Shown in pieces: positions 6,432 through 49,346 of a stretch of DNA of 64,000 nt (positions are counted from its first letter, which is position 1; each line of letters begins with the position of its first letter). Made by a program: the position numbers and the translations under genes. Origin of the DNA: Spirochaetaceae bacterium. GTDB lineage: Bacteria; Spirochaetota; Spirochaetia; B11-G9. The stretch lies in NCBI GenBank assembly GCA_015493635.1, contig WGCU01000026.1:71718-135717 (forward strand), given 5' to 3'. The notes beneath the pieces were generated by a model. The model made no database searches. It had not been told where the DNA came from and worked only from the letters and a program-made list of their open reading frames with translations.

Positions 6432-9200
6432 ATGAATACTCTTCAGAAAATAGTATTCAGTTTTCTCATAACTGTTGTACTCTTTTCAATCTTTATTTTT
6501 GCTGGATTCACTGGCCTTTTTACCACTCTTGAAACTAAGTTTTATAATAAAAAAATACAAAAGATATACATTGAAAAAACAAAAGATATTGCAGATGACA
6601 TAAATAGTTACAATGTAAAAAATAAAGAAAGATTTAGATCTGTCCTATCAAACCTCGATATTCAAAAAATTTATACATCACAGTGGGATGAGAAGTACAT
6701 TATAAAATTGCATAATCTATTCAATTTATTACTTGAACAGTATCCAGGTATAGAGTTCGTATGGTTTTATGATTCGAAAGGGCTTATACATTATAGTACT
6801 GCAGACTTTGCTGTGAAATCTCAAAGCGGTAGTTATAAAAAAGTCTATAAAAATCTAAAAGAAGCTGTTAAGGGTAGTAATAACAGTACAGCAGGAACAA
6901 CTGTAATTGATTTAAGCCTGCTTCAAGAAAATTTAGATACCGATTTTGGATTTGATCTTGATGAAAATCATGGACTGCTTCTATACAAATTTAAAGCAGT
7001 AGATTCTATAAACCTAAACAGAGGAATAGCCTTATTTGTTGTAAATAAAAGTGACCTAAAACGCTATCTTGTTCAAAAGAACGTGATGCAGATAGATGAC
7101 AGACTTACGTTTTTTAATGGTTCGTATGTTATAAACGGTTTCTCTATGGACAAAACGAATCAATATCTTAGTATTGAAAAATTTTGGAAAAGAATATTAA
7201 ATGGAAATAACGAAATATTTGTTGATCCTAATACAAAAGAAGAATACCTTCTTTTCAGTTCAAAGTCTCAGTTTGGAAACATAGTAAATTTTGTAAATAT
7301 ACGGGAATTTTCACTCAGTGATAGTATAAAACTACTCGTACTCATTATTATTTTTGTAACGTTGTATCTCCTTGTTTTTCTTGTCTTTAATATGCGGCAG
7401 AATAAACTTGCCGTACTTCAAGGGAAAATAAAAACCTTTCAGATCAGTTTTATAAGGGAGTATATCAATACAAGATATGATGGAAACGAAACCAATCTCA
7501 GTGGTGATTTAAGGCTTAAAACGAAAGAAATAAAAAAAGATATTCGTAAAAGTATTGGAAGAATAAAAAAGAATCAGTTGGAAAAAGTTGATAAAATGAT
7601 AGATGATTCCTGGGATGAGCTTCTTGAGCTTATTGAAAGCAAAACCAGGAATAAACAGTATCCGACTGCAGCAAATGTTGAAATAGGAAATCTTGAAGAA
7701 ATAATTACTAAAATTCTTACTTCTGAGAAAATGTTGCAGCCGGCAATAACAAAACCACAAAGATTACAAGATATAAGTGAGTTAGCCGCAGAACCTGTGG
7801 GAGAGGCAGCAGAGCCTGAGGAAGCAGAGGAACTTGAAGAGTTACCAGAAGAACCTGAGGGAGAGGCAGCAGAGCCTGAGGAAGCAGAGGAACTTGAAGA
7901 GTTACCAGAAGAACCTGAGGGAGAGGTAGTAGAGCCTGTTGAACTTAATATTGCCGGATTTTCAGAAAGTATAAAGCAGTCAGCAGTTTTGGATCTTGAA
8001 AATGAAGTATTCCAAGGGTACTCGAAAGAGTTCGGTAGTGATGAAATATCAAAGAAAATACTTGCTTTCAAGAAGCAGGAAAAATCTGAAAATATTGAAG
8101 AATTAGAGCAGTTCCAGGAAGATGAGAAAATTTATGATCTTGAAATGGTTTCAGGTGGTGATAATTACACTGTTAGCCCCTATAAACAATTTTTATTTGA
8201 GTCGCCTGTAGAAGGTTTATTGGAAAAAGTACATGACCAAGAACCAATGTCTGGGAAGGAAATAACAATGAAAAACCCCAATGATTCTGAAAACCAGAAA
8301 GACTTGAGCAGTGAAAATAAAGAAGAACTGGAAGAACTGGAAGAACTGGAAGAACTGGAAGAACTGGAAGAACTGGAAGAACTGGAAGAAGAATTAGTAT
8401 ATTCGGATATGGAAGGTATGACTTTCAAGGAAAAGCTTGAAAGTTGTATAGAGCAGAATATTTGTGAGATAGTACCCTTTGCAGAGTACTATTCGATGAA
8501 TAATCAGCCTGAATCTGTTGCCCTCAGCAATGGAGTATTTAAAATTAAGGAAGAAGTATTCCAGAAGAAATTAGAGAAAAAAGATTCTAAATTTGAAGAT
8601 CTCGTTCACTCTGTAATGGACGAAAATGAAACTGCAAATGATTCAAGTATAGGGAATTTTCTGGGTTTAGCTAGTGTAGAGCTTCCGATGTTTTCAAAAA
8701 ATGATCTTAATGCCGGAAAAATCAATGGTATAAAAAATAAAAAAGAGCAAATGTCTGCCCTCATGATTGACAAAGGATTTAATCATGATTTCTATTTAAA
8801 AAGATATGGTACAAATGAACTTGGAATAATGAAATCAATTATGAACTTATCGAGGCATATGAATGCTTTGTATGCAGGAATTCTTGAAAATAAGAATAGT
8901 ACTTGGGTACTTTCTGAGGCCCTTGGATTTAAAAAAGAAACGATCTCAGGATTCGGTATACCTGTAGAAACTCCATTTGAAAAGGAAATTATAAGGAAAA
9001 GGTCCATTTTCTTGACAAAAAAGGGGAAAATTGGCATACAAGATATTGATAAGATGTTCTTACAGGAAGATTCAAAGTATATAGGAGGAATGTTTTTCTT
9101 TCCTTCTCTCTTTAAAAATCAAGAAGCTTATCTTGTCTTTGTATTAAAGAATGCTGAAAATAGTTTACAGGAATATGCAGAAAGGCTTTATTCTGTCTGA
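6432..9200 (+). CDS. Two-TM protein with acidic tandem repeats, unknown function
   Basis: 922 residues, not recognised as a named family. TM1 lies at about 7-29 and TM2 at 299-319, enclosing a ~270-residue extracytoplasmic region that has a Cache-like stretch (EFVWFYDSKGLIHYSTAD, ~108-125). A charged helical region follows. Residues ~457-497 hold an exact two-copy 20-residue Glu/Pro-rich repeat, and 631-651 hold seven EEL triplets. The C-terminal ~140 residues are globular, possibly GAF-like (weak inference). The layout suggests a membrane sensor or scaffold. It is monocistronic between a terminator and the rny promoter. No clear ribosome-binding site lies at the usual distance. Confidence 0.8.
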   Translation: MNTLQKIVFSFLITVVLFSIFIFAGFTGLFTTLETKFYNKKIQKIYIEKTKDIADDINSYNVKNKERFRSVLSNLDIQKIYTSQWDEKYIIKLHNLFNLLLEQYPGIEFVWFYDSKGLIHYSTADFAVKSQSGSYKKVYKNLKEAVKGSNNSTAGTTVIDLSLLQENLDTDFGFDLDENHGLLLYKFKAVDSINLNRGIALFVVNKSDLKRYLVQKNVMQIDDRLTFFNGSYVINGFSMDKTNQYLSIEKFWKRILNGNNEIFVDPNTKEEYLLFSSKSQFGNIVNFVNIREFSLSDSIKLLVLIIIFVTLYLLVFLVFNMRQNKLAVLQGKIKTFQISFIREYINTRYDGNETNLSGDLRLKTKEIKKDIRKSIGRIKKNQLEKVDKMIDDSWDELLELIESKTRNKQYPTAANVEIGNLEEIITKILTSEKMLQPAITKPQRLQDISELAAEPVGEAAEPEEAEELEELPEEPEGEAAEPEEAEELEELPEEPEGEVVEPVELNIAGFSESIKQSAVLDLENEVFQGYSKEFGSDEISKKILAFKKQEKSENIEELEQFQEDEKIYDLEMVSGGDNYTVSPYKQFLFESPVEGLLEKVHDQEPMSGKEITMKNPNDSENQKDLSSENKEELEELEELEELEELEELEELEEELVYSDMEGMTFKEKLESCIEQNICEIVPFAEYYSMNNQPESVALSNGVFKIKEEVFQKKLEKKDSKFEDLVHSVMDENETANDSSIGNFLGLASVELPMFSKNDLNAGKINGIKNKKEQMSALMIDKGFNHDFYLKRYGTNELGIMKSIMNLSRHMNALYAGILENKNSTWVLSEALGFKKETISGFGIPVETPFEKEIIRKRSIFLTKKGKIGIQDIDKMFLQEDSKYIGGMFFFPSLFKNQEAYLVFVLKNAENSLQEYAERLYSV
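7801..7920 (+). repeat. Exact 60-bp tandem duplication inside the acidic-repeat gene
   Basis: Positions 7801-7860 and 7861-7920 are identical base for base, and a degenerate third copy begins at 7921. The unit is in frame, encoding a Glu/Pro-rich 20-mer with the core EEAEELEELPEEPEG. Identity at the DNA level, including third codon positions, indicates recent duplication. Confidence 0.95.
8322..8384 (+). repeat. 9-bp microsatellite-like repeat, seven copies
   Basis: Seven uninterrupted copies of GAAGAACTG, each encoding Glu-Glu-Leu, in the same gene. Slipped-strand mispairing would add or remove whole EEL triplets without shifting the frame, so the tract would change length rather than switch the gene off. 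Confidence 0.95.
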
Positions 9201-46419: not shown

Positions 46420-46569
46420 ATCTTTCTTGTTATTGTAATCGACTTTGCTGCTCTTGCCGCGTGGGGGAAAATACTCCATCACCTTGATGCGTTTACTATT
46501 GATAAAAAAAATGAGTACTATCTGTTCTGGTTTATCATTGCGGGGGTTTTCCTTAATCTTATTCTTGTA

Positions 46570-47820
46570 ATGGTCATGTATCCCCTCTGGGAATTTGTAC
46601 TGTACGGAATAACCGGTCTGCATGATGGTCAGGACCCCTTTGTAACGTACTTTTTGATTGTAGGTCCCGTTGAGGAGACAACCAAATTTCTTGTCTTTAT
46701 CTTCCTGGCAGGTATTTTTAAGTCCATAAAGGAACCGAGAGACGGCCTTATCCAGGCAGGTTCGGCTGCTCTCGGGTTTTCCCTTATGGAGAACTTCGGC
46801 TATGCCATGGATTACGGATTATCCGTACTTCTTATCCGTTCGGGTATAACCACCCTCGGGCACGTAACCTTCGCTGCCTTCTGGGGGCTCGGGTGGGGGG
46901 CGTACCGGTACAGTTCAGGATCCGGGGAGAAAACAACAGACCGGTTTTTTGTGATCCCGCTTCTTATTGCTGCCATGGTTGTTCACGCTGGCTTTGACAC
47001 CCTTCTTGAGTACGGACATTTTTATTTAGCACTGTTTCTTGATCTTGCTGACCTGTATATCTTTATTATGTTTTACCGTTTTGTAAAGAATGAAAGGTTT
47101 CAATACCCCAGGGTAAACCCTGGACTCAGGCCGCTATCGCGGCCTATTCCGCGGCAGAGCCGCGGGGTATTTCAACCTTCCGTTCTCTGCACTCGCTTAG
47201 GGCAGAAACCAACAAGTTGTTCCGCTCCACTCACTCCGTTTGAGAATAACTCACCCTACAGGCGCTACACCCTCAGAGAATACAAAAAGGCAATACCAGT
47301 GCTGGAAGCAGGATTAAAAAGGCATAAGGACAGTTACGTGCTGAACAAGAGGATGGGCATCTTTAAAATGTATGTACGAAGATACCGCGAGGCTCAGAAA
47401 AACCTGAAAACGGCTGTAAAGATAAATTCCCGGGGGCTAGAGGCCCGGTACTTTCCCGGTGCATCGATGTTTCTTCCGGGAGATACGGAGAAGGGGCTGA
47501 AGATGATGAATTCTGTTGTTTCCAGGATGCCGGAGGTACCGCGTAAAAAGCTTAACCGGAAGCTTAAAAAGATAATAAGCAGCACTCCGGACAGGGAGAA
47601 GATCTACAGCAGGTACTGTGCTTCAGCGGGAAAGTTTACTGAACACCGTTACCTTGCGGAGCGGGAGTATGCAGGTTTGAACAGAGCCCTGCAGCGGCGG
47701 GGGAGCTCCGATATCTGGAAGCGGGGGTACCTTGCTAAAAGGCAGCGGCGGACGTACGGCAGCAGACTCGACGAGCAGGTTGCCCGGTACAAGGAGCTTG
47801 TGGCCAGGCTGAAGGATTGA
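46570..47820 (+). CDS. PrsW-type intramembrane protease with C-terminal TPR region; N-terminus damaged
   Basis: The ORF from ATG 46570 has 416 residues. PrsW motifs are present: IVGPVEETTKFLVF (Glu pair), GFSLMENFGYAM, TLGHVTFAAFWG and VVHAGFDTLLE (His/Asp). Homologous-looking coding continues upstream in frame to 46432 or so (…IDKKNEYYLFWFIIAG…) but without ATG, GTG or TTG, and the frame enters the rpmE terminator, so the natural 5' end appears lost or uses a rare ATT start. The core is followed by an in-frame palindrome/repeat insertion (47102-47248) and then a TPR-like region (~245-300, YKKAIPVLEAGLKRHKDSYV). Possibly a decaying gene. Confidence 0.65.
   Translation: MVMYPLWEFVLYGITGLHDGQDPFVTYFLIVGPVEETTKFLVFIFLAGIFKSIKEPRDGLIQAGSAALGFSLMENFGYAMDYGLSVLLIRSGITTLGHVTFAAFWGLGWGAYRYSSGSGEKTTDRFFVIPLLIAAMVVHAGFDTLLEYGHFYLALFLDLADLYIFIMFYRFVKNERFQYPRVNPGLRPLSRPIPRQSRGVFQPSVLCTRLGQKPTSCSAPLTPFENNSPYRRYTLREYKKAIPVLEAGLKRHKDSYVLNKRMGIFKMYVRRYREAQKNLKTAVKINSRGLEARYFPGASMFLPGDTEKGLKMMNSVVSRMPEVPRKKLNRKLKKIISSTPDREKIYSRYCASAGKFTEHRYLAEREYAGLNRALQRRGSSDIWKRGYLAKRQRRTYGSRLDEQVARYKELVARLKD
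47102..47171. repeat. Perfect four-stem cloverleaf palindrome
   Basis: 70 bp in which every stem pairs perfectly. Outer stem AATACC (47102-47107) with GGTATT (47166-47171). Hairpin 1: CCAGGG/CCCTGG, loop TAAA (47108-47123). Hairpin 2: GGCCGC/GCGGCC, loop TATC (47129-47144). Hairpin 3: CCGCGGC/GCCGCGG, loop AGA (47149-47165). Linkers of five and four bases separate the hairpins. It lies in frame within the PrsW-TPR ORF. It looks like merged REP-type palindromes rather than a tRNA: no seven-base anticodon or T loop exists. Confidence 0.9.
47169..47248 (+). repeat. Dispersed ~80-bp repeat, copy A
   Basis: Begins ATTTCAACC, contains CGTTCTCTGCACTCGCTT and ends CGCTCCACTCACTCCGTTTG plus AGAATA. 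It directly continues from the cloverleaf. About 80% of positions match copy B at 48116-48194 by eye, with conserved blocks at both ends and a divergent middle. Same orientation as copy B. Confidence 0.88.
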
Positions 47821-48071: not shown

Positions 48072-48115
48072 TCATAAGTACAGATACATAAATGTTTGGG
48101 ACATTGTATCCAGCT

Positions 48116-48194
48116 ATTTTAACCTTTCGTTCTCTGCACTTGCTTGGGAACGGGGCCACCACGTTTTCCCGCTCCACTCACTCCGTTGAGAATG
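48116..48194 (+). repeat. Dispersed ~80-bp repeat, copy B
   Basis: Second copy of the element at 47169-47248. Shared blocks include CGTTCTCTGCACT and CCGCTCCACTCACTCCGTT. It lacks the cloverleaf. It forms the last 22 codons and stop of the ATPase gene on the minus strand and lies beside the helicase remnant. The two copies are direct repeats ~950 bp apart. Confidence 0.88.
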
Positions 48195-49312
48195 AAATCA
48201 AGATAGTTCTTGTTGTTTATAATCTCAAAACGAGCATCGGGATAAGTTCTTTTCCAGTCTGTGGGTACCTTTGTTTTTTTATCCGGAGACCACTTTATTT
48301 CGTATCCGGAAAGCTGTCCGTCTTTCTCTTCAACAAGATCTATCTCCTGTTTGTTGTAGGTCCGCCAAAACCAGGAGTTGGTAAAGTTTCTGTGGTAGGT
48401 GTTTTTCTTTAAACGTTCGAGTACAATAAAATTTTCCCATAACTGCCCGATATCATTACGCAAATCCATACTGTTGAACTGGGAAATTACAGCATTACGA
48501 ATTCCTGTATCCCAAAAGTAGTACTTGTTTTTTTTGTTTATTTCTTTCCGTAAATTCCTGCTGAATCCTTTTACTGATAGTATGACAAATGTTTTTTCAA
48601 GCAGGTCGATATAGTGCTGGACAGTTTTTGTATCAATTCCCAGAGTATTGGACAGTTCGTTGAAGGAAACCTCGGATCCTGTTTGAAAAGCCAGTAGTTT
48701 AAGAAGGTTGTATATGACATTTGAACCCCTGATATTCCCGTGAGCAAGAATATCCTTTAACAGGTAAGATTGAACAAGTTCTTCCAGTAATTCTCTTTTC
48801 CCGGCTTTGTCTTTTGTTGTTATAACTTCAGGATATGAACCGTATATCAGCATGTTTTCCAGCTGTTCCTTCAGTTCATGTTTGTTGTAGATAGTATTCA
48901 ATTCAAGCTGGGATATGGGAAAAAGAATACGGGTAATTTTTCTTCCTGTTAACGGTTCTCCTATCTTTTTTGAAAGTTCAAAAGAAGATGACCCTGTCGC
49001 AATAATTCTTAAATCCGGTCTTTGATCAACCAGTATTTTTAAACCTTTACCGATGTTGGCAATTTCCTGGGCTTCATCAATTGCAACAAGCTCATATCCT
49101 TCTGCGTAGTCCAGAATATCTGTAAAATCCTGAGACTGAAAAAGCTGCTGAATCTTGATGTTATCTCCGGAATCCAGTTTGTATTTCAGCGTTGTCCCTG
49201 ATAAGAAACTGTTCAAAAGTGTTGTTTTCCCAACCCTTCTGGGGCCGTAAAGGACAAGAACTTTCCCGCTTTGTAAAATATCCGCCAGATTGTATGAGCG
49301 TTCAATGAACAT
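48119..49312 (-). CDS. AAA ATPase with DUF4143 domain
   Basis: 397 residues from ATG 49312 (MFIERSYNLADIL); a GTG 24 bases upstream is also in frame. Walker A is LYGPRRVGKTTLLN, Walker B is LVAIDEAQEI, and sensor ATGSSSFEL follows. After a winged-helix-like segment comes the DUF4143 nuclease-like fold with FWRTYNKQEIDLVEEKDG and YEIKW, resembling PD-(D/E)XK residues. The last ~22 residues, after YLDFIL, are read from repeat copy B and are not family sequence. Such genes are frequent, often mobile, and of unsettled function. A+T-rich compared with prsW. The start has no ribosome-binding site and lies 5 bp from a -10 hexamer. Confidence 0.85.
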   Translation of the reverse strand: MFIERSYNLADILQSGKVLVLYGPRRVGKTTLLNSFLSGTTLKYKLDSGDNIKIQQLFQSQDFTDILDYAEGYELVAIDEAQEIANIGKGLKILVDQRPDLRIIATGSSSFELSKKIGEPLTGRKITRILFPISQLELNTIYNKHELKEQLENMLIYGSYPEVITTKDKAGKRELLEELVQSYLLKDILAHGNIRGSNVIYNLLKLLAFQTGSEVSFNELSNTLGIDTKTVQHYIDLLEKTFVILSVKGFSRNLRKEINKKNKYYFWDTGIRNAVISQFNSMDLRNDIGQLWENFIVLERLKKNTYHRNFTNSWFWRTYNKQEIDLVEEKDGQLSGYEIKWSPDKKTKVPTDWKRTYPDARFEIINNKNYLDFILNGVSGAGKRGGPVPKQVQRTKG

Positions 49313-49317
49313 GGTTA

Positions 49318-49346
49318 AGAATATGACCAATTCCACAAATTGTCAA
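49318..49346 (-). promoter_or_regulatory. Promoter of the AAA/DUF4143 ATPase, probably leaderless
   Basis: On the minus strand TTGACA (49346-49341) and TATTCT (49323-49318), 17-bp spacer. The ATG is at 49312, so transcription would begin within a base or two of the start codon. A direct repeat ATTCCACAAATT (49330-49341 and 49363-49374) overlaps it. Confidence 0.55.

Follow-up and report, generated by a model that had tools for sequence, protein, structure and literature searches.

Short, transposase-less elements termed PATEs have been described in Haloquadratum; they lack terminal inverted repeats, carry near-terminal palindromes, and make no target duplication (PMC3119063), and their ends are related to those of IS605-type transposons (PMC3119063). 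The ends of IS200/IS605 elements are subterminal hairpins of 20–25 nt (PMC6006769), and transposition of these elements uses the lagging-strand template (PMC6006769). REP sequences are 21–65 nt long and are tagged by a tetranucleotide, for instance GT[AG]G (PMC6006769).

The DNA analyzed here, referred to as the window, is a 64,000-nt stretch of a Spirochaetaceae bacterium (G000:C26:71718-135717; the assembly comprises 3.27 Mb in 101 contigs). A sequence-only reading of the window had pointed to a perfect cloverleaf inside a coding region and had proposed a mobile REP-like unit. Our analysis indicates that the cloverleaf is almost certainly part of a class-wide family of mobile DNA elements.

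Fold, conservation, and distribution of the element

The features of the locus are as follows.

46420..47820, plus strand: PrsW-family protease gene that has a C-terminal repeat region and contains the element in frame (Pfam PF13367; insert absent from orthologues)
47089..47249, plus strand: whole element as aligned, AATGAAAGG...GAGAATAA (about 40 copies aligned, covariance model 184 bits, flank joining)
47102..47171, plus strand: four-way cloverleaf of a junction stem and three hairpins (fold and shuffles; pair counts in 40 copies)
47093..47182, plus strand: outermost stem region (AAAGGT / ACCTTC side) enclosing the cloverleaf (fold with flanks; pair counts)
47183..47247, plus strand: right-hand hairpin half (GTTCTC...GAGAAT), the left end on the bottom strand (two covarying helices)
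47245..47249, minus strand: target pentamer TTATT flanking the insertion (conservation; reconstructed empty sites)
47089..47093, minus strand: other terminus TCATT (AATGA conserved, background beyond; identical in the IS200 elements of genomes G287 and G264)
48091..48195, plus strand: second, decayed copy, right half retained and cloverleaf mostly gone (covariance model 57 bits; 81% direct repeat)

As single-stranded DNA, positions 47102–47171 form a mismatch-free four-way cloverleaf with a 6-bp outer stem, as had been read from the letters, except that the three hairpins measure 6, 7, and 7 bp and not 6, 6, and 7 bp. The folding energy is −24.9 kcal/mol (z −6.19) and none of 200 shuffles folds as well, in agreement with the earlier statement that the structure is unlikely to arise by chance. 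The RNA fold of the same interval with 30 nt of flank reaches −61 kcal/mol (z −7.1), and when flanks are included pairing extends outward past the cloverleaf (AAAGGTT/AACCTT). The interpretation of AATACCCC and GGGGTATT as two merged REPs is rejected, as these are the two arms of a single junction. Folding of the cloverleaf in mRNA, which had also been raised, is possible, but the element can be explained without it. The net insertion of the window copy is 156 nt (e.g. 47089–47244 or 47092–47247), its placement being ambiguous by the 3–4 nt common to both junctions. The mobile unit is thus about 156 bp, not the 70 bp first proposed, whereas mobility itself and a Y1/HUH-type transposition system were retained from that proposal. 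All complete copies are about 155 bp long, which is too short to encode a transposase. Palindromes lie near the termini, as indicated by the folds and the covarying pair counts, and the ends AATGAAAGG and GTTTGAGAATAA are non-complementary, so that terminal inverted repeats are lacking. In some copies (L103 and L104 in genome G055, L132 in G080), a cloverleaf hairpin has a further hairpin of about 20 nt nested within it.

Conservation of the structure was assessed in an alignment of 40 copies from many genera, with the consensus structure calculated by RNAalifold. In this structure 94.8% of the cells are paired and 16 of 25 pairs show two-sided changes; none of 500 shuffles reaches either the paired fraction or the two-sided-change count, results that are not to be read as probabilities since the shuffles ignore relatedness, and the paired fraction falls to about half when the partners are shifted. 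The junction model derived from the window copy gave comparable figures, with 93.5% paired and two-sided changes in 11 of 24 pairs. For the outermost stem, 93% of the cells are paired and two of five pairs change on both sides, and the two helices of the right-hand hairpin half show such changes in 2/4 and 7/8 pairs. The helices with covariation support are the outermost stem, hairpins 1 and 3, and the right-hand hairpin. The junction stem hardly varies and is backed by pairing alone, and hairpin 2, which can be drawn in the listed copies, is too variable for alignment and was left unscored. The idea that the coding region contains a palindrome by chance has the short length of each stem in its favor and nothing further; given the shuffled folds, the roughly 55 copies in the genome, and the compensatory changes across genera, this explanation can in practice be discarded.

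The sequence-only reading had named a search for further copies as the observation that could overturn a mobile element. A search with window positions 47080–47280 returned about 40 copies in the same genome at 78–94% identity, with a common block extending from AATGAAAGG to GAGAATAA. The covariance model located 65 non-overlapping places, 55 of them at ≥40 bits and 44 at ≥100 bits. With about 55 convincing copies in its own genome, many in relatives, and empty sites, the mobile-element reading withstood this search. Across 297 Spirochaetia genomes the model matches 25, spread over 13 genera and several with at least 10 copies each, and in a phylum sample of 393 genomes the five with matches all belong to the same class. 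DNA searches at the genus and family level proved too narrow, the genus being represented by this genome alone and the family yielding one diverged copy, in G001. An exact 19-mer scan of a public genome collection matched one Guaymas spirochaete contig and an exact 25-mer scan matched nothing; exact-pattern scans of viral contigs and searches of phage and plasmid collections likewise returned no match. A tRNA search was also negative. Because the element matches no Rfam model, the phage and plasmid collections contain no match, and a limited search of the open-access literature found no description of it, the element appears to represent an undescribed Spirochaetia repeat family.

Insertion sites and genomic context

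The gene carrying the window copy contains the PrsW protease domain, in agreement with the assignment made from the letters, and the cloverleaf lies in frame. The PrsW orthologues in genomes G001, G003, G006, and G017 align to residues 1–224 and about 276–410 only; in place of VKN-[52 residues]-NSPY in the window protein, they have sequences such as VKDNSPY or VRDNSPY. As this copy happens to be 156 nt long, the frame is left intact and gains 52 residues. The PrsW copy would thus be, from comparison of the predicted proteins, an example of an element lengthening a protein without breaking it. Empty sites could be reconstructed in three coding genes, namely PrsW, a PD-(D/E)XK gene of the same genome, and rloB of a relative. 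At G000:C32:17082-17234, a 294-codon frame covering positions 6–229 of 229 of PDDEXK_2 is recovered once the two flanks of the copy are joined. In G287, rloB without its 154-nt element and a 614-bp IS200 close by encodes a product that covers RloB positions 1–195 of 195. At the latter locus (L143; G287:C4, about 75.4–76.5 kb), a single rloB contains the element and the IS200, both with the same junction motifs.

All three inserts can be placed on the bottom strand 3′ of TTATT or TCATT, with an insert end of CATT, and the 3–4 nt common to the junctions at these three empty sites are constant motifs rather than variable target letters. Conservation among copies stops abruptly at AATG on the left and, on the right, at AATAA in the own genome and AATNA elsewhere; AATAA is found at the right end in at least 33 of 35 own copies. 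The junctions and these sharp limits together give a bottom-strand reading of T(N)ATT, the element, and an end of ...TTTCATT. The element is inserted precisely and has neither inverted repeats nor a variable target duplication.

When genes are called by a simple frame-based method, 29 of the 40 copies lie between genes, the neighboring genes show even orientations (−+ 10, +− 8, ++ 8, −− 8), and a single long frame extends across both sides in the window copy alone. In at least four copies (L012, L017, L018, L025; possibly L010) the AATGA of the element supplies the TGA stop of the upstream gene, which may be the reason such insertions are tolerated. Where the TAA within the target AATAA serves as a stop codon, an insertion would, judging from the motifs, exchange it for TGA and leave the protein intact.

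These contexts bear on the idea of a conserved functional RNA, a regulatory or terminator element for which DNA mobility is secondary. The very stable RNA fold, the strong covariation, the mostly intergenic location, and the stop codons supplied to upstream genes are all compatible with such a role. The lack of an Rfam match and the even neighbor orientations speak against it, and it leaves unexplained both the disruption of the PD-(D/E)XK and rloB genes and the terminal pentamers that match those of an insertion sequence family. We attach little weight to this explanation.

Several further observations concern individual copies. The decayed copy at 48091–48195, 0.9 kb away from the intact one, gives C-terminal codons to a DUF4143 ATPase ORF (48119–49336, minus strand). 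On G000:C32:9613-17234 (L176), a 7.6-kb span contains four same-orientation copies, and one of these interrupts the PD-(D/E)XK transposase-family nuclease gene. A cassette array was considered for this region, where the spacing is about 2.3–2.9 kb, and was rejected because the copies lie between or inside unrelated genes; integron attC sites, also considered, consist of a GTTRRRY/RYYYAAC core pair beside cassette genes and intI. Two contigs (G000:C11 and C12, positions 119–277; L010 and L014) start with the same right flank and element and differ on the other side, either because the element was a site of recombination or because the assembly is broken there. Elsewhere in the window, positions 7779–8399 encode Glu-rich tandem repeats with 60-nt and 9-nt units that are unrelated to the element.

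Candidate transposase and proposed mechanism

Matches to PF01797 (Y1) were mapped in 43 genomes, and 31 Y1 loci were scanned for the element. A single locus, that in rloB of G287, lies near a copy; none of the 31 has a Y1 gene flanked by element copies (a REPtron), and no autonomous element with the exact element ends was found around them. The TnpA at the G287 locus, P0001 (PF01797), has clade relatives in G264 (75% identity), G260, and G029, and its clade forms intact IS200 elements of about 610 bp in related spirochaetes. The G264 element, defined by two 98%-identical copies, has a 5′ flank of TTATT (on C5) or TTGTT (on C8) and the end GTTCATT, and the G287 element lies between TTATT and GTATCG with the end AAATTCATT. 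The junction motifs of the element and of these TnpA-bearing IS200 elements are near-identical. In addition, the left-end hairpin of the G287 insertion sequence has a 23-nt stretch, AAATACCCCGCGGCTTGCCGCGG, in common with the own-genome element consensus (score 48, the highest score among 1000 shuffles being 24). A weaker similarity is seen for the left end of the G264 insertion sequence, matched by 1 of 1000 shuffles. There is no significant sequence similarity between the right ends of the insertion sequences and the element, or between the G287 element and the ends of the G287 insertion sequence. Seven element copies in G287 have a mean identity of 97.3%, compared with 73–86% in seven other genomes, figures that refer to the best-scoring copies and a contrast that comes from one genome; this would be consistent with elements having moved recently in a genome that contains the enzyme.

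The sequence-only reading had suggested a test for a RAYT/TnpA-type gene elsewhere. The one intact Y1 gene of the own assembly has ends different from those of the element, for which reason the own-genome IS200 was rejected as the mobilizer. A close relative of P0001 was not found in the own assembly, and the element-rich genomes G098, G174, G204, and G222 have no Y1 gene at E ≤ 1e-4, with a completeness of 99% for G098 and 77–87% for the other three. The orientation of the element relative to GC skew shows no bias (18 of 37), although GC skew stands in only weakly for the replication strand when the assembly consists of contigs. The missing Y1 genes and the lack of strand bias make the mechanism less certain and leave the conclusion of mobility unaffected.

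We consider it probable that the element is a non-autonomous IS200/IS605-like element of the PATE type that has unusually elaborate ends and depends on TnpA supplied in trans for its movement. On the bottom strand it starts after T(N)ATT and ends with TTTCATT, and it has no coding capacity. As single-stranded DNA it would expose a side hairpin at the left end and the cloverleaf at the right end, and a Y1 (HUH) transposase of the IS200/IS605 type, supplied in trans, would recognize these folded ends and cut 3′ of T(N)ATT and 3′ of TCATT. The cut strand would be circularized and then joined 3′ of another T(N)ATT. On the shared motifs the P0001-clade TnpA is the presumed mobilizer, the single-stranded fold is presumably what it reads, and its cognate enzyme may have been lost from this genome or left unassembled. 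The broader proposition, that class-wide miniature elements carry a four-way-junction transposon end that is read by an IS200-type TnpA and mobilized in trans across genera, is put forward tentatively, as we judge it somewhat more likely to fail than to hold.

Two other enzymes could be responsible. An unrecognized recombinase might use folded or double-stranded DNA as its substrate, and the resemblance to IS200 ends would then be convergence on short A+T-rich motifs; the element-rich genomes in which no Y1 gene was detected and the absence of strand bias speak in its favor. This is rather unlikely, as a single TnpA clade matches the element in its two junction pentamers as well as in its left-end hairpin. 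Less likely still is a REP/REPIN-type element that depends on a RAYT (TnpA-REP), which is close to what the sequence-only reading had favored. It would account for a palindromic, many-copy, mostly intergenic element, and RAYT-like Y1 proteins of 160–215 aa occur in several relatives, including one encoded 2 kb from the only strong copy in G001. However, an element of about 155 bp with two unlike ends is not a 21–65-nt hairpin with a GT[AG]G tag, so that size and tag place it outside the REP description (PMC6006769), and it inserts precisely with a target motif. Furthermore, no RAYT gene flanked by the element was found; apart from the IS200 near one copy the scanned Y1 loci have no such neighbor, and the closest link is to the IS200-type TnpA clade with the same insertion signature. 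The RAYT gene of G001 (L153, G001:C136) is flanked by different repeats, GGGTCAGAGG. This RAYT-like gene and its repeats possibly form a separate REP-type system.

Comparison with known systems

The element resembles REP, REPIN, and RAYT systems (PMC6006769, PMC3116915) in being dispersed and palindromic and in its link to the same Y1 protein superfamily. It differs from REPs in its much greater length, its asymmetric ends AATGA/AATNA, the lack of GT[AG]G at the hairpin foot, and the lack of a REPtron. It is unlike a classical MITE in having neither terminal inverted repeats nor target duplication. The window copy is similar to the Rickettsia palindromic elements (PMC10969869), being a palindromic insert of about 150 bp in frame in a protein gene, but those elements are mostly in frame, whereas 1 of 40 copies here is convincingly so, the rest being mostly intergenic and some gene-disrupting.

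With PATEs the element has in common the lack of inverted repeats, the near-terminal palindromes, the lack of duplication, and a length too short for a transposase. Unlike PATEs, it has a compound cloverleaf end and is spread across a bacterial class, and a related autonomous element was found in relatives and not in its own genome. As to IS605-type ends, the junction pentamers and one left-end hairpin are common to the element and the IS200 elements of relatives; the right ends are not significantly similar, and no such insertion sequence is present in the own assembly. As in the P0001-type IS200 elements of G287 and G264, insertion is 3′ of TTATT/TTGTT, the 3′ end is TTCATT, and a left-end hairpin follows AATACCC. 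In contrast to IS200/IS605, there is no tnpA/Y1 gene between the ends, which carry at least four hairpins rather than one each. The conserved secondary structure, the defined ends, and a concrete candidate enzyme make recognition of a compound DNA fold in single-strand transposition directly testable on this element. If the proposed mechanism is correct, at least one insertion has been kept as an in-frame PrsW linker and single-strand transposition has gained a new end architecture, in which the cloverleaf end would be a new variant of the IS200/IS605 end.
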